A stretch of DNA of 42,860 nt from Myxococcota bacterium. GTDB lineage: Bacteria > Myxococcota_A > UBA796 > CAJQPC01. The notes under the pieces were generated by a model. It was not told the origin of the DNA. It saw only the letters and a list, made by a program, of their open reading frames with translations, and made no database searches. The stretch spans positions 1 to 42,860 of the forward strand of contig JAKLKD010000132.1 of the NCBI GenBank assembly GCA_023150845.1, written 5' to 3'. Positions 5,688 to 30,965 of the stretch are shown piece after piece. The position numbers were made by a program, and so were the translations under genes. Within the stretch, counting starts at the first letter, position 1. The number at the start of each line of letters is the position of its first letter.

Positions 5688-5828
5688 CGAACCTCTCTAC
5701 CTCAAAGCGGGCGGCCTGTGGCGCCGCTGCGGAGAAGATCCCCTGGAACCCCGGCGGCGCGCCCTGCGTGCTTGGGTTAGCCTTTGGCCGCGCGGGAGAT
5801 GACGCCGCGCGAACGTGATGGAGCCGAG

Positions 5829-7817
5829 ATGATTCGGAAGGTGACGATTGGCCTGCTCTCCGGCGTTGTGGCCGGGACCCTTGTGGGCGAGGCCGAGGCC
5901 CTGTGGGTGCTCTCCTCTGCGGGCGCGGTGAGCGACTACGTGGCGCTGTTCTACGCCGCGGTGCTCTACGCGGCCATCGGCGCCGGCATGGGCCTCGCCG
6001 TCGGCGTCGGCCTCGCCGTGCTCTCGAAGATCACCGACAAGGTGAGCGAGCCCTTGGCGTACGCCCTTGGCTTCTTCGGCGTGTTCGCGCCCTTGGGCCT
6101 CGTGATCAGCCGGTACATCGCCAACAAGGTGATCTACGCCGAGGCCGGGGTGCCGATGAGCGGCAACCTCACGCTCTTGGCCGTCTTCGGCGGGATCTCG
6201 CTCGTCGGCCTGTTCTTGGTGCCGATCCTCCTCACCAAGACCCCGCTGCGGATCCTCCTCCAGCCCAAGGGCTCCTTGGCGCTCTGGGGCGCCATCGCCG
6301 TCATCAGCGCGGCCTTCTCTTTCGCTCCCGGCGGCGGCGGCGCCAACACCATGGCGCCGGAGAAGCAGCAGGGCCAAGAGCTCGCCACGCGCCCCGACGT
6401 GCTGCTCATCGTCGTGGACACGCTCCGCGCCGACCACCTCGGCGCCTACGGCTACCCCGTCGCCGACATCTCCCCGAACATCGACGCCTTGGCCAAGGAC
6501 TCCTTGCTCTTTGAGGAGTCCCACGCCCAGGCCTCCTGGACCCGGGCGAGCTTCGCGAGCCTCTACACCTCGATGTTGCCTTCTGCGCACAACACCGCGC
6601 TAAAGGTCTCGGTGTTGCCCGACGACGTGGAGACCATCGCCGAGGTGCTCAGCCGCACGGGCTACGTCACGGGCGGCATGCCCAACAACACGAACGTGAC
6701 GCAGTCCTTCAACTTCCACCAGGGCTTCGACAGCTTCAAGTACCTGGCGCCGAACATGCCGTTCTTCGCGACGGAGTCGGTGTACCAGCTCTCGATGTAC
6801 AGCGTGCTGCGTAAGATCGGCGAGCGCTTCAAGGGCGACCACAAGGTCGTCGAGGACTTCTACCAGCCCGCCAACGTCGTCGTGGACGAGGCCAAGTCCT
6901 TCATCGACGCCCAGGGCCAGCGCCGCTGGTTCTTGATGATCCACTTCATGGATCCCCACGACCCCTACTTCGAGCACCCCTGGAACGGCAAGGGTTATGG
7001 CCGCGCCGAGCACGAGCGCCCCGACCCCGCCGACGTGGAGTACCTCAAGGCCACCTACGACGCCGAGATCCGCTACATGGACTCGGAGATGAAGCGGCTC
7101 TTTGACTGGCTCAAGGAGACGGGCCGGTACAACAACACCGCCATCGTGCTCACCGCCGACCACGGCGAAGAGTTCTACGAGCACCAGGGCTGGTGGCACG
7201 GCACGACCTTGTACGAGGAGCAGATCAACGTGCCCCTCATCGTGAAGCTCCCCAACCAGGAGCTCGCCGGGGCCCGGGTGCCTTGGCCCGTGCGCAGCAT
7301 CGACGTCGCCCCGACCTTGGCGGCCCTCGCGGGCGCCGAGCCCTCGCCGATGTGGCAGGGTGAGAGCCTGCTCGAGGACGCCGACCGCGCGGGCTACACC
7401 CGGCTCCTCGCGCCGCCGCCCCCGCCGGTGGACCCCGCCGCCCCGGTGGACCCCGCCGCCGAGCCCGCTCCCCCGCCCTTCGACCCCAGCAAGCTCGCCC
7501 GCACGGTCATCGCTGAAGAGGACTTTGAGGGCAACCAGATCACGGCCGTGATCCAGGGCGGCTGGAAGTACATCGTCGCCAACGAGGGCAACCCCCGGGG
7601 CCTCAAGCCTGAGGAGCTCTACGACCTCGGCGCCGACGCCAACGAGCTGAGCGACCAGGCCGGGAAGAACGGCGAGAAGCAGGTCGCGCTCTCGGCGATC
7701 CTCACCCAAGAGCTCAGCCAGGCGAAGGGCGGCGCCGTGAAGGCCCAAGACGCTGAGATCGACGCCGCGACCCGCGCCCAGATGGAGGCCCTTGGCTACA
7801 TGGAGGGCGAAGAGTAA
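5829..7817 (+). CDS. Membrane-anchored sulfatase-family (alkaline phosphatase superfamily) protein
   Basis: A 662-residue protein with five predicted membrane helices in residues 5-165 and a large alkaline-phosphatase-superfamily domain from about 188 to 640. Metal-site motifs are VVDTLRADH (D197), MDPHDPY (374-380), TADHGEEF (442-449) and H457. In the nucleophile loop the sequence is ASWTRAS (235-241), not the Cys/Ser-x-Pro-x-Arg that is converted to formylglycine in true sulfatases, so Ser236 or Thr238 would be the nucleophile; a phospho- or phosphoglycerol-transfer/hydrolysis role is as likely as sulfate release. A Pro/Ala-rich insert lies near residues 520-550. I placed the start at 5829, where GGAG stands 5 bases upstream; an in-frame start at 5784 is poorer. 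A strong hairpin terminator follows. Confidence 0.88.
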   Translation: MIRKVTIGLLSGVVAGTLVGEAEALWVLSSAGAVSDYVALFYAAVLYAAIGAGMGLAVGVGLAVLSKITDKVSEPLAYALGFFGVFAPLGLVISRYIANKVIYAEAGVPMSGNLTLLAVFGGISLVGLFLVPILLTKTPLRILLQPKGSLALWGAIAVISAAFSFAPGGGGANTMAPEKQQGQELATRPDVLLIVVDTLRADHLGAYGYPVADISPNIDALAKDSLLFEESHAQASWTRASFASLYTSMLPSAHNTALKVSVLPDDVETIAEVLSRTGYVTGGMPNNTNVTQSFNFHQGFDSFKYLAPNMPFFATESVYQLSMYSVLRKIGERFKGDHKVVEDFYQPANVVVDEAKSFIDAQGQRRWFLMIHFMDPHDPYFEHPWNGKGYGRAEHERPDPADVEYLKATYDAEIRYMDSEMKRLFDWLKETGRYNNTAIVLTADHGEEFYEHQGWWHGTTLYEEQINVPLIVKLPNQELAGARVPWPVRSIDVAPTLAALAGAEPSPMWQGESLLEDADRAGYTRLLAPPPPPVDPAAPVDPAAEPAPPPFDPSKLARTVIAEEDFEGNQITAVIQGGWKYIVANEGNPRGLKPEELYDLGADANELSDQAGKNGEKQVALSAILTQELSQAKGGAVKAQDAEIDAATRAQMEALGYMEGEE

Positions 7818-7846: not shown

Positions 7847-7882
7847 GACCCCCGCGGCGACCCCCGCGGGGGTCTCTGTTTT
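7847..7882 (+). terminator. Rho-independent terminator after the sulfatase-family gene
   Basis: An 11-base-pair perfect stem (GACCCCCGCGG at 7847-7857 with CCGCGGGGGTC at 7864-7874) with a 6-base loop is followed by TCTGTTTT. It lies 30 bases after the stop codon at 7817 and ahead of the next gene, so the two genes are separate transcription units. Confidence 0.85.
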
Positions 7883-7933: not shown

Positions 7934-10231
7934 ATGAAGATTCGATTCCTCGGCGCTGTGGGCACGGTCACCGGCTCACGGTCTCTCCTCCAGGCTGACG
8001 GCGCCCGGGTGCTCGTCGACTGCGGGCTCTTTCAAGGCTTCAAGTCCCTGCGTGAGCGCAACTGGGAGCCTTTCCCCCTCGACCCCCGCGCCTTGGACGC
8101 AGTGGTGCTGACCCACGCGCACCTCGACCACTCGGGCTGGCTGCCCGCCTTGGTGCGGGACGGCTTCCGCGGCCCGGTCTACTGCACCGAGCCCACCCGG
8201 GACCTCCTCGGCCTGCTCCTGCCCGACAGCGGGCGCATCCACGAGGAGGACGCGAACTTCGCCAACCGGCACGGCACCTCCCGCCACACCCCCGCCGAGC
8301 CGCTCTACACCGAAGACGACGCGTTACGCGCCTTGGACCAGCTCAAGGCCGTGCCGTTTCACACGCCGCAGGAGGTCGCCGCTGGGCTCAGCGCCCTCTT
8401 TGTGCCGGCCGGGCACATCCTCGGCGCCTCGACGCTGCAACTCACCCACAAGGGCCAGCGCTGGGTGTTCTCCGGGGATCTGGGCCGTGAAGACGACCTG
8501 CTCATGCGCCCGCCCGAGGCCCCGCCCGAGGCCGACGCCTTGGTGCTGGAGTCCACCTACGGCGACCGCGTGCGCCCCCGGGGCGTGGACCCCCTCGACG
8601 CCCTCGCCGAGCTGATTCAGGTCGTGGCGGGCCGTGGCGGCGTCGTGCTCGTCCCGGCCTTCGCCGTGGGCCGGGCCCAGGCGCTCCTCTGGGCGCTGCG
8701 GCGCCTGCTCGACGACGGGCGGATCCCCGCCCTGCCCGTGATCCTCGACAGCCCCATGGCGGTGAGCGCGACGGACCTCTTCATCAAACACCACACGTTC
8801 CACCGCCTCAGCCCCGCGGACTGCGACCGGATGGCCGAGGGCGTGCGGTTTGTCCGTGAGGTCGAGGAGAGCAAGGCCCTGCGGAACGTCGAGGGGCCGC
8901 ACATCCTCATCTCCGCGAGCGGCATGTTGACCGGCGGGCGTGTGCTGCACCACCTCGCGCGCCTCGGCCCGAACCCCCGGAACGCCGTCGCTTTGGTCGG
9001 CTTCCAGGCGCCGGGCACCCGGGGCGGCGACCTCGTCGCGGGCAAACGCCTCCTCAAGCTCCACGGCCAGGAGGTGCCCATCGAGGCGAGCGTTCACAAC
9101 CTTGAGGGCTACTCCGCCCACGCGGACCAGATCGAGCTCGTGGACTGGCTGCGCCGCCTCAAGTCCCCGCCCGAGGCCCTCTGGCTCAACCACGGCGAGC
9201 CCGCCGCCGCCGAGGCCCTGCGCCGCAAGATCCAGGACGAGCTCGGCCTGCGGGCCATGGTGCCCCCGGAGAACCTCGACCTCAACCTCGACGGCCCCGC
9301 CCGCCGCCCCGCGCCCGCGGGGCCCTCCCCGGCGGCGATGGGCTACGACCCGAGAGAGTCCGCCCGTGTGCGCGCCTTGGTCGAGGACAACTCCTACATC
9401 CCCGCTGACGAGGACACCGCGTTCTTGGACCGGGAGGATCTTCGCGCCACACGCCTCATGCTGGAGTACCTCAAGCCCGATCGCCTCCTGCGGGAGGCGG
9501 GCATCCAGGACGTCGTCGTGGTCTTCGGCGGGGCGCGGGTGCTCTCCCCGGAGCGCGCGGAGGAGGCCCTGCGCCGCGCCGAGCGTGAGCTGGAGCGCTC
9601 CCCCGACGACCCCGCGCGCCAGGCCGCCCTCACCGCGGCGAAGCGCCAGGTCGCCCGCTCGTCGATCTACGTCGACGCCCAGCGCTTCGGCCGCCTCGCG
9701 TCCTCTGAGGAGCTCTGCGCCGGGGTCACCCTCACCGTGATGACCGGCGGCGGTCCTGGCGTCATGGAGGCCGCGAACAAGGGCGCCTGGGAGCTCGGGC
9801 GCCCGTCGGTCGGCCTCAACATCACCCTGCCCAAAGAGCAGCTCCCGAACCCCTTCTTGAGCCCCGGGCTCTGCTTCCGCTTCCGCTACTTCGCGCTGCG
9901 GAAGATGCACTTTCTGCTCCGCGCCCGGGCGCTCGTCGCTTTCCCCGGCGGCTTCGGCACCTTGGACGAGCTCTTTGATGTGCTCTGCCTGATGCAGACC
10001 AAGAAGCTCAGCCGGATGCCCGTCGTGCTCGTCGGCGAGGAGTTCTGGCGGAAGGCGCTCAACCTTGAGCACCTCGTCGAGGAGGGCGTCATCGCCGCCG
10101 AGGACCTCGATCTTGTGCGCTTCGTAGACAACGCCGACGCGGCCTGGGCGACGATCCGCGCGTTCTACGCCAAGGACGGGCCGGGCGGCGCCTTCTTCTT
10201 CGATCCCCCGAACCGGCGGCACGCCCCATGA
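7934..10231 (+). CDS. Fusion: beta-CASP metallo-beta-lactamase RNase + LOG-family phosphoribohydrolase
   Basis: A continuous 765-residue reading frame joins two enzymes. Residues 1-455 are a metallo-beta-lactamase/beta-CASP nuclease: HAHLDH (61-66), H161, D182, LESTYGDR (205-212), PAFAVGRAQ (241-249), GYSAHADQ (392-399, H396) and LNHGEP with H420, matching the RNA-processing KH-free bacterial group related to CPSF73. A Pro/Ala linker spans about 456-470. Residues 471-765 are a LOG/YgdH-type nucleotide 5'-monophosphate phosphoribohydrolase: GGGPGVMEA (605-613), RK (656-657) and PGGFGTLDE (671-679), all intact. The joint is in frame with no stop; an internal ATG at 9338 could start the LOG part alone but has no clear ribosome-binding site. 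The coupling suggests RNA degradation to 5'-NMP followed by release of the base, which is my inference. The stop overlaps the next gene's ATG by 4 bases. Confidence 0.93.
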   Translation: MKIRFLGAVGTVTGSRSLLQADGARVLVDCGLFQGFKSLRERNWEPFPLDPRALDAVVLTHAHLDHSGWLPALVRDGFRGPVYCTEPTRDLLGLLLPDSGRIHEEDANFANRHGTSRHTPAEPLYTEDDALRALDQLKAVPFHTPQEVAAGLSALFVPAGHILGASTLQLTHKGQRWVFSGDLGREDDLLMRPPEAPPEADALVLESTYGDRVRPRGVDPLDALAELIQVVAGRGGVVLVPAFAVGRAQALLWALRRLLDDGRIPALPVILDSPMAVSATDLFIKHHTFHRLSPADCDRMAEGVRFVREVEESKALRNVEGPHILISASGMLTGGRVLHHLARLGPNPRNAVALVGFQAPGTRGGDLVAGKRLLKLHGQEVPIEASVHNLEGYSAHADQIELVDWLRRLKSPPEALWLNHGEPAAAEALRRKIQDELGLRAMVPPENLDLNLDGPARRPAPAGPSPAAMGYDPRESARVRALVEDNSYIPADEDTAFLDREDLRATRLMLEYLKPDRLLREAGIQDVVVVFGGARVLSPERAEEALRRAERELERSPDDPARQAALTAAKRQVARSSIYVDAQRFGRLASSEELCAGVTLTVMTGGGPGVMEAANKGAWELGRPSVGLNITLPKEQLPNPFLSPGLCFRFRYFALRKMHFLLRARALVAFPGGFGTLDELFDVLCLMQTKKLSRMPVVLVGEEFWRKALNLEHLVEEGVIAAEDLDLVRFVDNADAAWATIRAFYAKDGPGGAFFFDPPNRRHAP

Positions 10232-10695
10232 GCGGCCCGGCGCTCTCCGCGGTCCTCTCGGCCCTGCACCTGCTGGCGATGGGCCTCGGCCTCGTCAGCC
10301 TGCGCGGGCGTGGGCTCGCCTTGGCGGGCCCCTTAGACGCCCCTGGCCGCCAGCAGCTCCTGCGCCACGACAACGCCTGGGGCCTCGCCGCGGCGCTCTG
10401 GGTCGGCACCGGCCTCGCCCGCGCCTTCGGCGGCGTCGAGAAGGGCCTCGACTTCTACATGGCCTCCGGCGCCTTCCACCTCAAGATGGGCCTCTTCGCC
10501 CTGGTGCTCGTCCTGGAGCTCTGGCCGATGATCACCTTCTTGCGCTGGCGCTTCGACATCGCCTGCGGGAGAGAGCCCGACACCCGCCGCGCCCGCGCCT
10601 TCTTGTGGATCAACCGCGTCGAGGCCGTCGTCGTGGTGCTGATGGTGTTCGTGGCGTCGTTTATGGCGCGGGGGCTGGGGATGTTGCCGCGTTAG
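10228..10695 (+). CDS. DUF2214 family membrane protein
   Basis: A 155-residue integral membrane protein with four hydrophobic helices (about 7-25, 50-66, 80-105 and 130-150). The helix pattern with LRHDNAWGLAAALWVGTGLAR and FHLKMGLFALVLVLELWPM matches the uncharacterised DUF2214 family, where an Asn/Trp-rich second helix and a Lys-containing third helix are typical. Its ATG overlaps the stop codon of the beta-CASP/LOG fusion (ATGA), so it is translationally coupled to it. Its TAG stop overlaps, on the other strand, the TAA of the converging glycosidase gene. No function is known for the family. Confidence 0.85.
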   Translation: MSGPALSAVLSALHLLAMGLGLVSLRGRGLALAGPLDAPGRQQLLRHDNAWGLAAALWVGTGLARAFGGVEKGLDFYMASGAFHLKMGLFALVLVLELWPMITFLRWRFDIACGREPDTRRARAFLWINRVEAVVVVLMVFVASFMARGLGMLPR

Positions 10696-11552
10696 GGTCC
10701 CGCCGGGGGGCGCATCACCACGGCGTTGATCGTGCCCGCCTGGCCGGTGACCACGAGGCGCTGGCCGTCGATGACCGCCGCGAGCTGGGTGGAGATGCCG
10801 CCGTCGAGGTTCAGGGCGGTCACCGCGTCGGTCGAGTGGAGGAGGTAGTCGGCGAACACCCCCAGGGTGGGACCGGCGTGCTCCGCGGCGCCGAGCTGGA
10901 GCGCCCCGACGCCCGTGGTCGTGACCGTCGCCTCGGCGGCGCTGATCACGAGCCACACCTGCTCTTTGCCGACCACGACGGCGGACCGAGCGGTCTGTGC
11001 CCCACCGACCGTCTTCACCACGCTCGCCCCGGCGTTCACCAGACGATCGATGCTCTGCAGCGCCTCGGGAGGCCCGGCTCGCCAGTCGTCACGGTGCACA
11101 ATCTGGGCGCCCGCTGGGCTCCAGAAGAGCACCCCTGAGCCACCGCGGGGGCTCAGCGGTGTGTGCTCCTTGCCGCCGCTCACGACGAGGCCCATGGCGC
11201 CCTCCTCGTAGAAGCCGCCGTTGATGGCCACCCAGGGCGCGAGCTCCTCTTGCGGCAGGAGCGCCTCGAAGGGCGCCACCCCCTCCGAGGGCCGCACGCT
11301 GAGGCGCGCGTTGAGGGGCGCGCGAGCGCGGTAGGTCACCATGTTGATCGGCGGCTGGCCATCGTCGGGGGCCCAGAGCCAGCGCTGACGCTCGACGCTG
11401 AGGCCGCCTTCAGACATCAGGGTCACCGTCTCGCCGAGGGTGATGACCGATGGTGCGGATGGCGCCAATGGCGCTGATTGCGCTTGGGTTGGGGGTGCTG
11501 CGGCCTCGCCCGGGGGGCCGCTGCAGGCGAGCGTGATGAGGGTGAGGATCAA
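10692..11552 (-). CDS. Phosphodiester glycosidase (NAGPA/DUF2233) domain protein, putative lipoprotein
   Basis: A 286-residue protein whose residues about 70-283 form a NAGPA-type (DUF2233) phosphodiester glycosidase domain, with NGGFY at 111-115, ARSAVVVGKEQVWLVI near 188-203 and the hallmark NLDGG at 248-252. The family splits a sugar from a phosphodiester, as in the uncovering enzyme, and bacterial members are mostly extracytoplasmic. A cysteine at residue 10 in ITLAC suggests lipid attachment, but the hydrophobic stretch before it is only nine residues with no positive charge, so either the start lies further upstream inside the preceding gene or the anchor is atypical. The start read here is TTG at 11552, which overlaps the TGA of the large upstream gene by 3 bases. 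The two genes are thus coupled. Confidence 0.8.
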   Translation of the reverse strand: MILTLITLACSGPPGEAAAPPTQAQSAPLAPSAPSVITLGETVTLMSEGGLSVERQRWLWAPDDGQPPINMVTYRARAPLNARLSVRPSEGVAPFEALLPQEELAPWVAINGGFYEEGAMGLVVSGGKEHTPLSPRGGSGVLFWSPAGAQIVHRDDWRAGPPEALQSIDRLVNAGASVVKTVGGAQTARSAVVVGKEQVWLVISAAEATVTTTGVGALQLGAAEHAGPTLGVFADYLLHSTDAVTALNLDGGISTQLAAVIDGQRLVVTGQAGTINAVVMRPPAGP

Positions 11553-14500
11553 CGGGCCACCGTGAGGAGATTGTGGGCGTTGGAGATGGGGACCGGGCCG
11601 ACGCGTAACACTTTGCCGTTGGAGTCGAACGCCTGCAGGATGTCGTATGAGCCGACGTCCAGGTTCGCGACGCCCTCGACGGTGAGCCCCGGCCCGGCAG
11701 GGGCTGGGGTCGTCATCGCGTGCAGGCTCACGAGCGCGGCCTCATGCAGAGACATCTTTGACCCGCCGGGGATGTCGATGATCGCGACGATCGGAGAGCG
11801 CCCGAACCGCGCGGTCACGAGCAGCCGCCGCTCACGCAGCTCCGCGCTGGCCCGGCCGCTGTCGATCACCAGGGCGCCGTCACTCACGAGCAGATGCGTC
11901 TGGAACGCGCTCGCGCCCTCCTCGCGGAGCCAGTCCACGAGCTCGGAGAGGTCGTTCAGATCGACGAGGGGGCGTAAGCTTCGGTGGCCGTCGGGCAAGG
12001 TCGCGCCACGCTTGAGGTCGAGGATCAGCGGTGGGGCTCCTGGGCGCAGCACGACGAGGCCGTCCATCTTCGAGGAGATGGCGAAGTTGGTGACCTGCCC
12101 GTTCATCATCGCGAAGCCGGCCGTGAGCTTGTCGGCGGTGACGTAGGAGGCCGCGCAGGCGAGCAGCGCGCCGCGTGGGAGGGCCCGCGCCTTGCCCCAG
12201 TCAACCTGCATCTTCCGGGCGTCAAACCGCGCGATCCAGCCCAGCGCGCGTCCATCCCGCGCCAGCTCGGCGTATCGTGCGGCGCCACCCTCGCCGGACC
12301 AGCCGCCCTGGAGGGTGTACTTGGCCTTCGCCGCGGAGGAGATCGCCGCGGCCTCGTCCCGGATGGACTCGTTCGCCTTGAGCCACACCCGACCCAGCAC
12401 GTACTCAAAGTCGCCCGTCCCCCAGGCCCAGAGCGCCTTGTTCAGCGACGAGACGGGCATGTCGAGGTGCACGTCCCAGAGGTTGAGCGCCGCCTCCAAG
12501 ACCACCATCTCGACCCGGCTGGCGCGCCCGTCTGCGAAGTCACGCTCGGCGTTTCGCCCGAGGTCCATCAGCATGAAGCGGCCCAGCAGGTTGTACAGGT
12601 CGGCCGCCGCGGGGTCTCCCACCTGTACCGCGCGGCCACCGACGGTCCAGCGGGCGCCATAACGCACGAGGAGGTAGTCGGAGGCGACCTGGTAACGCGC
12701 GAGCCACTGGTCGGGCGTAGGCTTGATGCGGCTCAAGAATGACTGGATGAGCTGAATCAAGAAGCGGCGGCCTGCTTCGGCGTCAGGGTGCTGGCCGTCA
12801 AGGCGTTGGCGGGCCCGCTCCAAGCGTGGGAGGTCACCCCGGATGCTCACCTCATCCAAGAGCGCGCTCCAAGGCACCGCGGAGAGCACCCCGTCCACGA
12901 CGTCCTGCTCGTCCTTCGCGGAGCGCACGGAGCCCTTAAGCGCCGCCCGCACGTCCGCGTAACGACTGGTGACGCCGTCCAGCGCGGCCTGCGCGCCCGC
13001 GCCCGGACTGAACATCGACCGGGCTCGGGCTTGGGTCGCCGCGGTGGTGTAGAGCCGCGACGGCGCGGCCGTGAGAGGGGACGTGGCGCTCTGCAAGGTG
13101 AAGCCGCTCTGCGCCAGCGCCTCTAGGGTGAGGCACCTCCGTGTGGTCGGCCCGTCCGCGAGCCAAGAGAGCGCGCTTGGCGCGGCCGGCTCCAACAGGA
13201 GCACCAGCGCTTGCTCGTCTGCACCTGCGAAGAACCCAGGCACCTCGACCCGCGGCTTCGCCTCAAGCGCGCCCAAGCGCCCTTTGAGCGATGGAACATC
13301 ACAGACCTGCTGCCAACCCGGCCTCTGGTCTACGTATCGCCGAATGGGCAGCACCCAGGCCCCTCCGGCCGCGCCCTCAACCGTCACCTCTAAAGCGTCG
13401 TGGTTTCGGAAGGCCTTGAGCTTGATGTTCTTGGAGCTTTGATTTGTGGCGATGTGCACACCGTGGACCTCACCTCTGCACCACGCGCGTCGAAGTTGTT
13501 CCTCATCCTTGGGGTTTGGGGGCGTGACTCCGCGCCGAGTCACTACGCTCACCGCGGCCGCGTCAGGGCTGGTGGCGAAGAAGCCCGGCGCCTTCGCGGC
13601 GCGACCGTTGCTCGTGGTCGTCAGCCATTGCCCTGCGCCAAGCCGTGGGTCCCAGCGCAGCGCCGTCATCGTGAGCCCGGCGCGCAGGGCGCTCCAGTGA
13701 AGGTCCGCGCCCTCACGACGCACCTGAACGGCGACCTCGTTGGAGCCTGTACACCCGCCCAGCTTGAGCTCCTCCAGCGCTCGTGGAGTCGGGCGGCTGG
13801 GCGCGCCCGCCAACGGGCCGCTGCTCCGAGCCGCTCGCTCCTCAAGCCGCTCGTTGAGCGTCACGAGGCCTGCGGCGCCGCCGATGCCCGCGGCGATGAG
13901 CGCCACCAGCACGGCGACGCGGTCCCACCACGCCGAGCGTACGCCACGTCCAACGGGGACGCCCGGGAGGCTCGTCGCGCCGTCGCGTAGGCTCTGGAAG
14001 ATCGCCCGAGCGGCGCGCCTTCCCCACCACCAGCGCGGCTTGAGGTGGCCCCACAGGAGCCCACGACCGGTATGAACCTTGAGCTGGAGGGTGAGGCCGT
14101 CCGTCGTGAGCTCCGTCACGCGGCTCCACGGGACGAGCTCGCCGCAATGGGGTTGTACGATCCGCTGAAATACCACGAACACGCCATGGACGGTCAGGGC
14201 GGCCATCGGGACCATGAAGAGCGTGCCCATGACCGTGAACTGGCGCAGGGCCGGGAATCGAACGAGGAGCCCCGAGGCGGTGAGCAGCACAGCGCCAAAC
14301 ACGATGAGCTGGACAAGCAGGCCCAAGAGTCGTGAGAAGAAGCCGAGCAGGCTGCGGATTGGTGAGGTCTTCCGACCCCAGATGCCGACTCCTTCCGCAA
14401 GAAACGACAGCTCCGCGGGGCCGACGAGCTCACCTCGGACACGCCAATCTCGCTGCCAATGGCCCTTAAACGTGACGGGCAAGGGGAGGGGCGGAGGGGC

Positions 14501-14563
14501 TCCCGAGGAGGTCTGAGGGCCATTACCAAGAGAAGAGGACGCAGGATCCACAGGAGCAGGCAA
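11549..14563 (-). CDS. Large membrane protein with possible divergent NAGPA-like C-terminal domain
   Basis: A 1004-residue protein not confidently recognisable as a whole. A Pro/Ser-rich start is followed by two hydrophobic helices (about 75-100 and 108-135), a cytoplasmic segment with a Trp-rich KPRWWWGRRAARAIF, and a third helix at about 215-236; the remaining 760 residues are probably extracytoplasmic. Residues about 798-1004 follow the order of a NAGPA/DUF2233 domain in degenerate form: MMNGQVTNFA near 819, SSKMDGLVVL, THLLVSDGALV, RERRLLVTARFG near 910, SLHEAALVSLHAM near 938 and ANLDVGSYD at 966-974 where NLDGG is expected. The next gene encodes a clear member of that family and is coupled to it, which supports this reading. 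Codon choice is less strictly GC-ended than in flanking genes. The function is unknown. Confidence 0.8.
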   Translation of the reverse strand: MPAPVDPASSSLGNGPQTSSGAPPPLPLPVTFKGHWQRDWRVRGELVGPAELSFLAEGVGIWGRKTSPIRSLLGFFSRLLGLLVQLIVFGAVLLTASGLLVRFPALRQFTVMGTLFMVPMAALTVHGVFVVFQRIVQPHCGELVPWSRVTELTTDGLTLQLKVHTGRGLLWGHLKPRWWWGRRAARAIFQSLRDGATSLPGVPVGRGVRSAWWDRVAVLVALIAAGIGGAAGLVTLNERLEERAARSSGPLAGAPSRPTPRALEELKLGGCTGSNEVAVQVRREGADLHWSALRAGLTMTALRWDPRLGAGQWLTTTSNGRAAKAPGFFATSPDAAAVSVVTRRGVTPPNPKDEEQLRRAWCRGEVHGVHIATNQSSKNIKLKAFRNHDALEVTVEGAAGGAWVLPIRRYVDQRPGWQQVCDVPSLKGRLGALEAKPRVEVPGFFAGADEQALVLLLEPAAPSALSWLADGPTTRRCLTLEALAQSGFTLQSATSPLTAAPSRLYTTAATQARARSMFSPGAGAQAALDGVTSRYADVRAALKGSVRSAKDEQDVVDGVLSAVPWSALLDEVSIRGDLPRLERARQRLDGQHPDAEAGRRFLIQLIQSFLSRIKPTPDQWLARYQVASDYLLVRYGARWTVGGRAVQVGDPAAADLYNLLGRFMLMDLGRNAERDFADGRASRVEMVVLEAALNLWDVHLDMPVSSLNKALWAWGTGDFEYVLGRVWLKANESIRDEAAAISSAAKAKYTLQGGWSGEGGAARYAELARDGRALGWIARFDARKMQVDWGKARALPRGALLACAASYVTADKLTAGFAMMNGQVTNFAISSKMDGLVVLRPGAPPLILDLKRGATLPDGHRSLRPLVDLNDLSELVDWLREEGASAFQTHLLVSDGALVIDSGRASAELRERRLLVTARFGRSPIVAIIDIPGGSKMSLHEAALVSLHAMTTPAPAGPGLTVEGVANLDVGSYDILQAFDSNGKVLRVGPVPISNAHNLLTVAR

Positions 14564-27093: not shown

Positions 27094-28998
27094 TCAGCTG
27101 CAGATGCGGTCGAGCCAGACGACGGTGTTGTTCTCTTCGTCACACTCGCTGTGGATCGAGCCGCCCGCGCCGTCATCATCGACGGTGAACAAGAAGCCGT
27201 TGACGCCGATGTCACCCGGCGCCAGCTCCAGCGCGAAGCCCTGAAGCGCCGTGCCCGCGGGGATCGCGTCCAAGGTGCCTGTCTTTACCAGGGTGATGGC
27301 CTCGCCGTCCACCTTGTAGAACGCCCAGGGCGTGCCCGCCTCGACGTCTACGGCGCCCTTGTTGGCGACCTGGAACGAGATCTTGATCGGCCCGTTGTTG
27401 CAGTCGGCGACGCAGAGGTCGTCGTAGCTCACGGTGAGGTCGGCGGCGGAGGGGTCGTCCACCGAGGGCCGGGCGCGGAAGACGTTGTACTTCTGCCAGG
27501 AGGCCTCGGGGGTGATGGGCACGGAGCCGTCGGGGTTGAGGTTGGTCACGGCGAAGTCGTGGGTGCCCCAGGTGGGCCCGGACTGCGGCCAGCCGTCGCC
27601 CGCGTGGCCGAAGACGGTGACGCCCTTCACGCCCGCGCCGCTGTAGACGTTCGACGCGATGACGATCTCCGCGGAGCCGTCCTGGTCCACGTCGGCGATG
27701 ACGGGGTACTCCCAGACCGTCCCCGAGGAGTGCGTGTAGTTCTCGTACAGCACGGCCCCGGTGGCGCCGTCGTACATACGCAGGGCGTCCTCGTCGGCGA
27801 AGAGCACCTCGTAGGCGCCGTCGCCGTCCATGTCGTAGCCCGAGCAGCCCGCGAGGCCGGAGCTGTCCTGCATCGGCATCTGCCAGACCTTCGTGCCGTC
27901 GATCTTCCACAAGGAGATGGTGGTGTTCGCGGGGATGGCGATCTCGATCTCGCCGTCACCGTCGAAGTCCGCGACCGAGGGCGGGCCGGGGTTGGAGCCG
28001 GGGATGACCGTCGACCGGATGAGGGAGCCGTCGTCGTCGTGTAAATAGAGCTGGCTGCCCGAGACGAAGAAGACCTCGCCGCCCGGGTCGCCGTCGACGT
28101 CGGCCACGGCGGAGAAGTTGCCCGCGCCGGTGCCGCTGTTGGACCACAACAAGGAGCCCGTGGCGCTGAACACCCGGTTGCCGAGGATGATCTCTTGTTT
28201 GCCGTCCTGGTCGAGGTCGGCGGCGATGGGCGTGCGCCAGGAGTTCGTGATGCCGGTGAGGGTCGCGACGGTGGAGCCGTCCTCGCCGTTGACCACGCCG
28301 ATGTCGCCGATGACCTCGGGCTTGCCATCCGCGTCGAGGTCGGCGACGGTGGGTTGGGGGTACGACATGACGCCGAAGGTCGCGGACTTCCACTCGGCGA
28401 CGCCGGAGCTGTTCACCGCGGCGATCTGGTTGGCGGTGGTGAAGGCGACGATCTCGGGCTCCCCGTCGGCGTCGACGTCGGCGATGGTGACGCCGCCTTG
28501 GCCGTTGTAGCCGGTGACCTCAAAGATCTCGGAGCCGTCCGCGCCGCTCAGCGCGACGAGGGTGTTGCCCATCCAGGTCGTGAAGACGATGTCGGGGGTG
28601 TCGTTCTCATCGACGCGGCCGTCGCCGTTGTCGTCGGTGAGGTTGCCGACGGCGGGCATGACGATGGCGCCGCTGCCGCCGGAGGTGTAGGACATCTCGA
28701 TGGTGAGGTTGAAGGGGTCGGTCACCGTGCCCGAGGTGCCGCTGCCTTCACACTCCTCGGTGATCTCGACGGTGCCCGGATCGGCGAGCTTGATGTCGCA
28801 GTCCTCGGGATCGACGACCTCAACCTCGGTGTCTTCGGGCGGCTCGCTGTCTTCACAGTCGGGGATCTGGGGCGGGCAGTCGGGCTCACCCGTCTCCTCC
28901 AGGGGCTCGCCGGGATCCTCCTCATCGGGCTTGATCTCGTAGTCCGAGCAGGCGAAGAGGAAGCAGGGCAGCAGGAGTGCGAGGGGCGAGCGCATCAT
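27094..28998 (-). CDS. FG-GAP/VCBS-repeat lipoprotein with C-terminal CARDB-like domain
   Basis: A 634-residue exported lipoprotein. The signal MMRSPLALLLPCFLFAC ends in lipobox LFAC with C17; an acidic and Pro-rich linker follows (residues 20-75). Residues about 110-520 hold several FG-GAP/VCBS repeats forming a beta-propeller, each with calcium-type Asp loops such as VGNLTDDNGDGRVDENDTPD, IADVDADGEPEIV, VADLDADGKPEVI, VADVDGDPGGEVFFV and VADFDGDGEIEIAI. The end (about 540-634) is a CARDB-like beta-sandwich ending IHSECDEENNTVVWLDRIC. Cysteines in the last part are likely paired. It is probably a surface adhesin- or integrin-like protein. The next gene upstream on this strand encodes a close paralog. 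GGAG precedes the ATG at 28998 by 5 bases. Confidence 0.9.
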   Translation of the reverse strand: MMRSPLALLLPCFLFACSDYEIKPDEEDPGEPLEETGEPDCPPQIPDCEDSEPPEDTEVEVVDPEDCDIKLADPGTVEITEECEGSGTSGTVTDPFNLTIEMSYTSGGSGAIVMPAVGNLTDDNGDGRVDENDTPDIVFTTWMGNTLVALSGADGSEIFEVTGYNGQGGVTIADVDADGEPEIVAFTTANQIAAVNSSGVAEWKSATFGVMSYPQPTVADLDADGKPEVIGDIGVVNGEDGSTVATLTGITNSWRTPIAADLDQDGKQEIILGNRVFSATGSLLWSNSGTGAGNFSAVADVDGDPGGEVFFVSGSQLYLHDDDGSLIRSTVIPGSNPGPPSVADFDGDGEIEIAIPANTTISLWKIDGTKVWQMPMQDSSGLAGCSGYDMDGDGAYEVLFADEDALRMYDGATGAVLYENYTHSSGTVWEYPVIADVDQDGSAEIVIASNVYSGAGVKGVTVFGHAGDGWPQSGPTWGTHDFAVTNLNPDGSVPITPEASWQKYNVFRARPSVDDPSAADLTVSYDDLCVADCNNGPIKISFQVANKGAVDVEAGTPWAFYKVDGEAITLVKTGTLDAIPAGTALQGFALELAPGDIGVNGFLFTVDDDGAGGSIHSECDEENNTVVWLDRICS

Positions 28999-29090: not shown

Positions 29091-30965
29091 TTACTGGCAG
29101 AGGGGATCAACCCAGGCCGCGGTGTTGTTGGTCTCATCACACTCGTCGTGCCGGGAGAAGCCGGCGCCGTCGTCGTCGACGACGAAGAGCAGGCCGCTCG
29201 TGCCCAGGTCGTCCGGGGAGAGCTCGATGGCGAAGCCTTCCGCCGCCACCCCGGCGGGCAAGGCGTCGAGGCTGCCCGTGCCCAAGAGGGTCTGCAGCTC
29301 ACCATCGACCCGGTAGAGCGACCAGAGCGTGCCCGCGGGGAGGTCTACGGCGCCTTGGTTGCTGACCTGCACGGCGAGCTTGATCGGGCCGTTGTCGCAG
29401 TCGGCGACGCAGAGGTCGTCGATGCGGGCGATGAGGTCGGGCGCGGCGGGGTCGTCCACCGAGGGCCGGGCGCGGAAGACGTTGTGCGTCGTCCAGGGGG
29501 CGTCGGGCCGGGCCGGGACCGTGCCATCGGGGTTGAGGTTGCTCACGGCGAAGTCGTGGGTGCCCCAGGTGGGCCCGGAGCGTGGCCAGCCGTCCCCGGC
29601 GTGGCCGACGACCTTCACGTTGATGAGCGCCGCGTTGGAGACGAGCACGATCTCCGCCGAGCCGTCGAGGTCTACGTCGGCGATGACCGGGTACTCCCAA
29701 TACGTCATGGAGGAGTGGCTGTAGTTCTCATAGAGGGTCGCCCCGGTGGCGCCGTCGAGGATACGCAGGGCCACCTCGTCGGCGATGATCACCTCGTAGG
29801 CGCCGTCTCCGTCGAGGTCATAGCCGGAGCAGCCCGCCGAGCCTGAGGCGTCCTGCATCGGCACGTCCCAGAGGTTCGTGAGCTTGTGGTTGAAAGCCGC
29901 CAGCGTGGTGCCTACGGGCACGACGAGCTCGACCTCCCCGTCGCCGTCAAAGTCCGCGACGCAGGGCGGGCCGGGGTTGGGCTCCTCGCCGGGGAGGCTC
30001 GCCCGCTTGAGCTGGGTGCCGTCCTCGTCGTAGAGGTAGACCTGGTTCTTGGAGACGATGTACACCTCGCCGCCGGGGTCGCCGTCGACGTCCGCGACCG
30101 CGGCGAAGGTGCCCATGCCCGTCGCGCCCGTGGTCCAGAGGAGGGCGCCGTTGGCGTCAAAGACGTGCTCGCCGAGGAGGATCTCCTGCTGGCCGTCTTG
30201 GTCAAGATCGGCGGCGACGGGGGTGCGGTGGCGCGTCGTGACGTTGCCGAGGGTGGCGGCGAGGGAGCCGTCCTCGCCGTTGAGCACCGCCAGGTCGGCG
30301 ATGACCTCGGGGAGGCCGTCCCCGTCGAGGTCGGCGACGGTGAGCTGGGGGAAGGTCGGGAGGCCGAGCGCCGGGGAGGTCCACTCGATGGTCCCGGCGC
30401 CGTCCACGGCGATGACCCGGCCCTTGTTGTTGACGGTGACGACCTCGGACACGCCGTCGGCGTCGACGTCGGCGATGGCGACGCCCGCGTCCCCAGCGGC
30501 CCCGGGGAGCTCAAAGAGGAGCGCGCCGTCGTCCCCGGAGATGGCCACGAGGGTGTTTGAGTAGAGGGTGGTGAAGGCGATGTCGGGCACGTCGAGGACG
30601 TCGATCGTGCCGTCGCCGTTGTCGTCGCTGAGGTTCCCCACGACGGGCGTGACGCTTGAGCCGCTGCTCCCGGCGTTGTAGCTCAGCTCAACCGTGAGGT
30701 TGAAGGGATCGGCGACGGGGCCGCCGGTGCTCTCGCAGGCCCCGTTGACGGCGACCGTGCCCGCCGGGGAGACCTTGACCTCACAGTCCTCGGGGTCAAC
30801 CACGACGATCTCGCTGTCGTCGCTGTCGTCGGCGCCGCCGGAGTCCGCGGCGGCGGCGGTCTCCTCAAGGGGCACGCCGGGGTCATCTTTCTCGGGGTTG
30901 AGTCGGTAATCCGAGCAGGCGAGGAGCGAGAAGACGCTCAGCCACGGCAATTGGGCGCGGTTCAT
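29091..30965 (-). CDS. FG-GAP/VCBS-repeat lipoprotein, paralog of its neighbour
   Basis: A 624-residue paralog of the gene at 27094-28998 with the same order of parts: signal peptide with lipobox LLAC (C17), acidic linker (ADSGGADDSDDSEIVVVDPEDCE), FG-GAP/VCBS beta-propeller (VGNLSDDNGDGTIDVLDVPD, IADVDADGVSEVV, VADLDGDGLPEVI, VADVDGDPGGEVYIV, VADFDGDGEVELVV) and a CARDB-like C-terminal domain ending CDETNNTAAWVDPLCQ. GGAG stands six bases before the ATG at 30965. The tandem arrangement, similar length and a 37-base identical DNA stretch (29543-29579 against 27546-27582) show a duplication, followed by divergence mainly in the linker and loops. The gap of 92 bases between the pair holds no terminator I recognise, so they may be one operon. 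Confidence 0.9.
   Translation of the reverse strand: MNRAQLPWLSVFSLLACSDYRLNPEKDDPGVPLEETAAAADSGGADDSDDSEIVVVDPEDCEVKVSPAGTVAVNGACESTGGPVADPFNLTVELSYNAGSSGSSVTPVVGNLSDDNGDGTIDVLDVPDIAFTTLYSNTLVAISGDDGALLFELPGAAGDAGVAIADVDADGVSEVVTVNNKGRVIAVDGAGTIEWTSPALGLPTFPQLTVADLDGDGLPEVIADLAVLNGEDGSLAATLGNVTTRHRTPVAADLDQDGQQEILLGEHVFDANGALLWTTGATGMGTFAAVADVDGDPGGEVYIVSKNQVYLYDEDGTQLKRASLPGEEPNPGPPCVADFDGDGEVELVVPVGTTLAAFNHKLTNLWDVPMQDASGSAGCSGYDLDGDGAYEVIIADEVALRILDGATGATLYENYSHSSMTYWEYPVIADVDLDGSAEIVLVSNAALINVKVVGHAGDGWPRSGPTWGTHDFAVSNLNPDGTVPARPDAPWTTHNVFRARPSVDDPAAPDLIARIDDLCVADCDNGPIKLAVQVSNQGAVDLPAGTLWSLYRVDGELQTLLGTGSLDALPAGVAAEGFAIELSPDDLGTSGLLFVVDDDGAGFSRHDECDETNNTAAWVDPLCQ

Follow-up and report, generated by a model that had tools for sequence, protein, structure and literature searches.

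A TTHA0252-type beta-CASP ribonuclease and a LOG phosphoribohydrolase domain joined in a single protein of Myxococcota

LOG proteins are common in bacteria, where their role beyond cytokinin chemistry is unclear, and ribonucleases of the TTHA0252 type have likewise been left without a settled cellular task. For TTHA0252 of Thermus thermophilus, 5'-3' exoribonuclease activity was reported, and endonucleolytic cleavage is probable too (PMC4229858). The LOG enzymes hydrolyse AMP-type 5'-monophosphates; N6-modified AMP is preferred by some of them, and for several, cytokinin nucleotides are much better substrates than AMP (PMC8234997). Both families are known; their combination, as a fusion or as a pairing of genes, was not found described in the literature searched, in which subscription papers were partially covered, and this does not prove novelty. 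To our knowledge, no beta-CASP/LOG fusion has been described.

The window analysed here is a stretch of 42,860 nucleotides from a Myxococcota bacterium (contig JAKLKD010000132.1), and its initial annotation proposed that a beta-CASP ribonuclease and a LOG enzyme are encoded as one protein of 765 residues. This was confirmed: positions 7934-10231 (+) form a single uninterrupted frame of 765 codons with an ATG start and no internal stop, the Pfam families of both enzymes are recognized in its product, and a congener carries the same frame. Pfam placed Lactamase_B at residues 17-198 (55.0 bits; gathering cut-off, 22.7), Beta-Casp at 248-367 (113.9 bits; 27.7), RMMBL at 380-444 (67.4 bits; 21.6), and Lysine_decarbox (PF03641), which is the LOG family, at 611-740 (100.8 bits; 27). 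The features of the gene are:

7934-10231, + strand: beta-CASP/LOG fusion gene, 765 amino acids (open reading frame, Pfam)
7934-9283, + strand: beta-CASP ribonuclease module (MBL, beta-CASP and RMMBL), residues 1-450 (Pfam, TTHA0252 match, Foldseek)
8114-8131, + strand: metal-site motif 2, HAHLDH, residues 61-66, invariant in 6/6 aligned fusions
8675-9034, + strand: Beta-Casp domain, residues 248-367 (Pfam)
9071-9265, + strand: RMMBL domain, residues 380-444, containing H396 and H420 (Pfam, motif reading)
9284-9403, + strand: linker, residues 451-490 (low pLDDT, below 50 at 455-467; dN/dS 0.32)
9404-10177, + strand: LOG (phosphoribohydrolase-type) module, residues 491-748 (Pfam, alignment to solved LOGs, HMM)
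9746-9772, + strand: LOG nucleotide-site motif GGGPGVMEA, residues 605-613 (alignment with solved LOGs)
9899-9901, + strand: LOG Arg656, in ALRKMHF (alignment)
9944-9970, + strand: LOG motif PGGFGTLDE, residues 671-679, with Glu679 (alignment)

All catalytic residues of the ribonuclease half are present, namely D29 (motif 1), H61, H63, D65, H66, H161, D182, E206 (motif A), H396 (within GYSAHADQ of the beta-CASP RNase site), and H420, and with them MBL motifs 1-4 and beta-CASP motifs A, B, and C, the set that marks the bacterial YSH1/TTHA0252-type RNases. The fold agrees, being an MBL domain with an inserted beta-CASP domain and an RMMBL segment; Foldseek returned 3ie1 (4.7e-38) and 2dkf (7.4e-38), and the module matched Thermus TTHA0252 at 2.4e-77 with a TM-score, normalised by target, of 0.91. 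RNase J was considered and discarded, as no RNase J model was among the NCBIfam matches at E 0.01. In the LOG half, the GGGPG..EA motif, the Arg (R656, 23 residues ahead of E679), and PGGxGTxxE lie in register with those of 5wq3, 5zi9, and 1wek, and the module matched an HMM of stand-alone LOGs at 2.7e-90. With NCBIfam TIGR00730, the window protein scored 92.3 bits, narrowly under the cut-off of 96.35, and a homologue from a genome of another family, G046, 102.1. The motifs that had been read earlier from the sequence (HAHLDH at 61-66, H161, D182, H396 in GYSAHADQ, H420, GGGPGVMEA at 605-613, and PGGFGTLDE at 671-679) were all recovered intact in their places, and D29, E206, and R656 are added to that list. 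A linker had also been anticipated, at about 9300-9340; it is present and proved broader, extending over residues 451-490 (9284-9403). The AlphaFold model (mean pLDDT, 88.5) shows two well-folded bodies with a linker of low confidence, at about 455-467, between them, and its pTM of 0.62 leaves their mutual placement open.

That the two halves were joined by chance without any shared function, or by an assembly error, could be argued from the draft state of the genome (444 contigs) and from the lack of a fusion in most relatives. However, the congener G001, which was assembled separately, has the same unbroken 765-codon frame, 93% identical and with approximately 200 synonymous differences, and G046 encodes a third intact fusion, so that neither chance nor an assembly artefact accounts for the gene. 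It had been recognized at the outset that separate genes in all close relatives would speak against the fusion, whereas the congener and the genome of another family both have the genes fused. Between the two species of the genus, dN/dS was 0.055 for the MBL part, 0.12 for beta-CASP, 0.037 for RMMBL, 0.32 for the linker, 0.16 for the N-terminal part of LOG, and 0.043 for the LOG core; judged by these ratios, strong purifying selection acts on both enzymes and a much weaker one on the linker. Considering the independent genomes together with the neighbourhood counts given below, in which the two genes adjoin far more often than chance predicts, joining by chance or error is effectively refuted.

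Outside the order, the two enzymes are encoded by separate genes. An initial search, whose hits were sorted by how well they covered both domains, returned such genes as neighbours in Chloroflexi, Desulfovibrio, Syntrophaceae, Desulfarculus, Bacteriovoracaceae, and Rheinheimera; because this ranking favours adjacent loci, it was excluded from the counts, which were made in evenly drawn genome samples and taken by hand from tables. In the phylum of the Syntrophaceae genome, the genes lie within about 1 kb of each other in 12 of the 37 genomes having both (the centre genome excluded), where random placement would give 0.2. The corresponding values for Dehalococcoidia are 5/14 and 0.08; all five loci were read directly, and one of them has a gap of about 1.2 kb containing another gene. 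Adjacent genes were also found in five Myxococcota genomes from beyond the order (G140, G201, G169, G083, and G172, with a 4-base overlap in G083) and on annotated plasmids of Hoeflea and Sulfitobacter (Alphaproteobacteria) and of Aureibacter (Bacteroidota). On the Hoeflea sp. plasmid (L163:4378-11056), the pair is situated between a TetR-type regulator gene, which it overlaps by a few bases, and HlyD/RbbA/ABC efflux genes. Either gene may come first, or the two may be divergent or convergent, and the LOG partner is of the short or the long type. A wider conserved operon was rejected, as the neighbours, read by eye from their N-termini, differ between loci and the pair alone recurs. Adjacency is kept in only about one third of the genomes having both genes, and the Alteromonadales sample (E 1e-20) gave no case besides the Rheinheimera centre genome; the pairing is thus not universal.

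No fusion was found outside the order in the samples of the Myxococcota phylum, Dehalococcoidia, the phylum of the Syntrophaceae genome, or Alteromonadales. Apparent single frames of 709-723 amino acids in Dehalococcoidia were resolved as two genes with in-frame stops (L035, L155, and L156). The two genes share a reading frame in several Dehalococcoidia, where only a few codons separate them, and hence they show a possible route to fusion. Given that the genes are separate outside the order and yet neighbours far above chance, the functional link is taken to be real, and the fusion is, from its distribution, derived from a gene pair that is itself widespread. On this genomic evidence, the fusion and a functional association of the two enzymes are regarded as virtually certain.

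Within a sample of 63 genomes of the order, intact fusions were found in the genus of the window and in G046, whose protein (L113) has 718 amino acids and is 54% identical to the window protein in the RNase and 60% in the LOG half. In four more genomes, a beta-CASP protein ends in a degenerate LOG tail, detected with the HMM of stand-alone LOGs at E values of 5e-25 (G014), 1e-14 (G048), 1e-11 (G029), and a weak 0.007 (G020). In the three of these that can be aligned, Glu679 is replaced and GGGPG destroyed, whereas all ten RNase residues are invariant. The LOG domains of G014, G029, G048, and probably G020 would therefore lack LOG activity although these proteins retain the tail, and LOG catalysis appears to be dispensable in some relatives. 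The C-termini of the proteins at L005, L008, L114, and L006, LOG-derived and without catalytic motifs, may be pseudoenzyme domains or represent ongoing decay. Two further genomes (G042 and G043) have a flavin-reductase-like domain in place of LOG at the same C-terminal junction of RNases of the same clade:

L118:880-2859, - strand: beta-CASP/flavin-reductase-like (PF01613) fusion, same order
L120:1501-3477, + strand: beta-CASP/flavin-reductase-like (PF01613) fusion, same order

In many genomes of the order, the RNase occurs alone. Because the fused LOGs form one group in the LOG tree (support, 87/91) and a single clade of fused and flavin-reductase forms is not rejected in the RNase tree (p-AU 0.85), the likely course was a single fusion and, later, decay, replacement, or loss.

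The retention of the tails invites the explanation that LOG serves as a nucleotide sensor or oligomerisation module, which would bind an NMP or an alarmone and tune the RNase, or hold its dimer together, with catalysis secondary or vestigial. At least three fusions without Glu679 and GGGPG retain a LOG-derived tail of about 130-250 residues next to an intact set of ten RNase residues; LOGs, moreover, dimerise with the active sites lying close to the dimer contact (PMC8234997), and (p)ppGpp controls the related PpnN by way of extra domains (PMC6717881). We nevertheless consider this explanation doubtful. The LOG core of the window genus has its full motifs and an evolutionary rate as low as that of the RNase (dN/dS 0.043), G046 has full motifs as well, and the separate LOG partners elsewhere retain theirs, whereas the degenerate tails diverge fast, with G029 and G048 of one genus sharing 67% identity in the RNase and 33% in the tail, a pattern suggestive of relaxed constraint.

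Immediately around the fusion gene, two features were noted:

7847-7874, + strand: terminator-like hairpin separating the fusion gene from the sulfatase-family gene upstream of it (consensus scan)
10228-10695, + strand: DUF2214 membrane protein (DUF2214, 116 bits), overlapping the fusion stop codon as ATGA

The terminator scan yielded 2 hits in the region against 1.1 expected, and Rfam gave nothing in the window at 5-14 kb. Translational coupling of the DUF2214 gene had been suggested, and the ATGA overlap, which recurs with the same fusion/DUF2214 arrangement in the congener, bears it out. Among the loci read, however, DUF2214 was not seen beside homologues outside the two genomes of the genus; the protein was consequently rejected as a conserved partner and is regarded as peripheral to the core system. 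The sulfatase-superfamily gene is intact in the window (5784-7817) and split into two frames in the congener (L154:5518-7573), by an assembly frameshift or as a pseudogene. The frame 10692-11552 (-) is convergent with the DUF2214 gene, overlaps the end of the latter, and encodes a lipoprotein-like product with a NAGPA (phosphodiester glycosidase) domain; next to it lies 11549-14563 (-), encoding a predicted membrane-anchored protein of 1004 amino acids with no Pfam match at E 0.01. Farther along, the adjacent genes 27094-28998 and 29091-30965 (-) encode similar predicted lipoproteins of 634 and 624 amino acids with CSDY... after the signal in both, apparently tandem paralogues. In G046, a gene for PNPase, another RNA-degradation enzyme, lies directly upstream of the intact fusion on the same strand, about 130 bases apart (L144:5219-7369, +; 970 bits against a cut-off of 525).

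The reading that we favour, with a probability of roughly 0.5, is that of a bifunctional enzyme acting sequentially in RNA catabolism. The RNase module would hydrolyse single-stranded RNA in a 5'-3' exo- and/or endonucleolytic manner; with TTHA0252 reported to be a 5'-3' exoribonuclease (PMC4229858), the release of NMPs by the fused RNase is plausible. The LOG module, on its flexible tether, would then cleave the N-glycosidic bond of the freed 5'-NMPs to yield base and ribose 5-phosphate, and thereby remove them from the pool that can be rephosphorylated. We infer some benefit of the tether, which need not imply true channelling. The complete active sites, the low dN/dS values, the PNPase gene beside the G046 fusion, and the gene pairs in several phyla argue for such a sequence of reactions; the second, stand-alone LOG encoded by the same genome (38-39% identical) and adjacency in no more than a third of genomes with both genes argue against it. 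Strict channelling would be at odds with the loss of LOG catalytic residues from related fusions and with the separate proteins of most relatives. As degenerate fused LOGs could not perform the second step, this step would be dispensable there, or the role of the domain non-catalytic.

The NMPs cleaved may be of the ordinary kind, or chiefly N6-modified nucleotides derived from tRNA and rRNA. RNA breakdown yields modified NMPs, and a special case of the sequential mechanism, serving another purpose, would have LOG destroy those arising from RNA turnover (e.g., N6-isopentenyl- or N6-methyl-AMP) and so block their rephosphorylation and reuse. Consistent with this, the LOG of M. tuberculosis cleaves isopentenyl-AMP efficiently and AMP slowly (PMC8234997), and given the LOGs that prefer cytokinin nucleotides, ordinary NMPs may be poor substrates. 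However, the substrate is not fixed by anything in the sequence analysed, with prenyl-binding residues variable among LOG types, and such sanitation of the nucleotide pool is regarded as an unlikely purpose of the fusion.

More broadly, and tentatively, with the odds somewhat against it, TTHA0252-type RNase and LOG, fused in one Myxococcota order, may act as a dedicated pair in a widespread undescribed pathway that commits RNA breakdown to base release or the disposal of modified NMPs and not to NTP resynthesis. If true, this would be a main role of many bacterial LOGs whose present annotation is that of cytokinin enzymes. The fusion and the statistically strong pairing in several phyla connect LOG and the TTHA0252-type RNase to one process; the fusion, moreover, provides one purifiable protein for testing, and its LOG-degenerate relatives provide natural controls.

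Compared with described systems, the nuclease core is homologous to those of Cas14 of type VII CRISPR (350.7 bits) and aCPSF1/FttA (268.7 bits), and the fusion falls far under their equivalog cut-offs (800 and 580.2); Cas14 has a C-terminal part of its own and aCPSF1 has KH domains. Assignment as a Cas14/CRISPR nuclease was rejected, as only profile positions 1-438 of 612 were matched and no CRISPR-like array is present in the window at 3-16 kb. PpnN (YgdH), the NMP nucleosidase of E. coli, has a related Rossmann core and catalyses the LOG reaction (PMC6717881) but, unlike the fusion, it is flanked by PAG1 and PAG2 domains of its own and is under the control of (p)ppGpp; this identity was also rejected, with 23.4 bits for NCBIfam PpnN against 450 and no PAG-domain (DUF4478/DUF3412) Pfam match. 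TTHA0252, a bacterial YSH1-type beta-CASP RNase (PDB 2dkf, 3iek), shares the MBL/beta-CASP/RMMBL architecture, the metal site, and 36% identity with the RNase module; with 431 residues, it is without the LOG domain of the fusion. Known LOG phosphoribohydrolases (TIGR00730/PF03641; PDB 5wq3, 5zi9, 1wek) share the signature motifs and stand alone, whereas the LOG of the fusion follows an RNase in the chain and has a longer helical part at its N-terminus. In the IPT-LOG chimera of Claviceps purpurea, LOG is joined to the enzyme producing its substrate (PMC8234997); its partner there is an isopentenyl transferase, and in the present fusion it is a ribonuclease.
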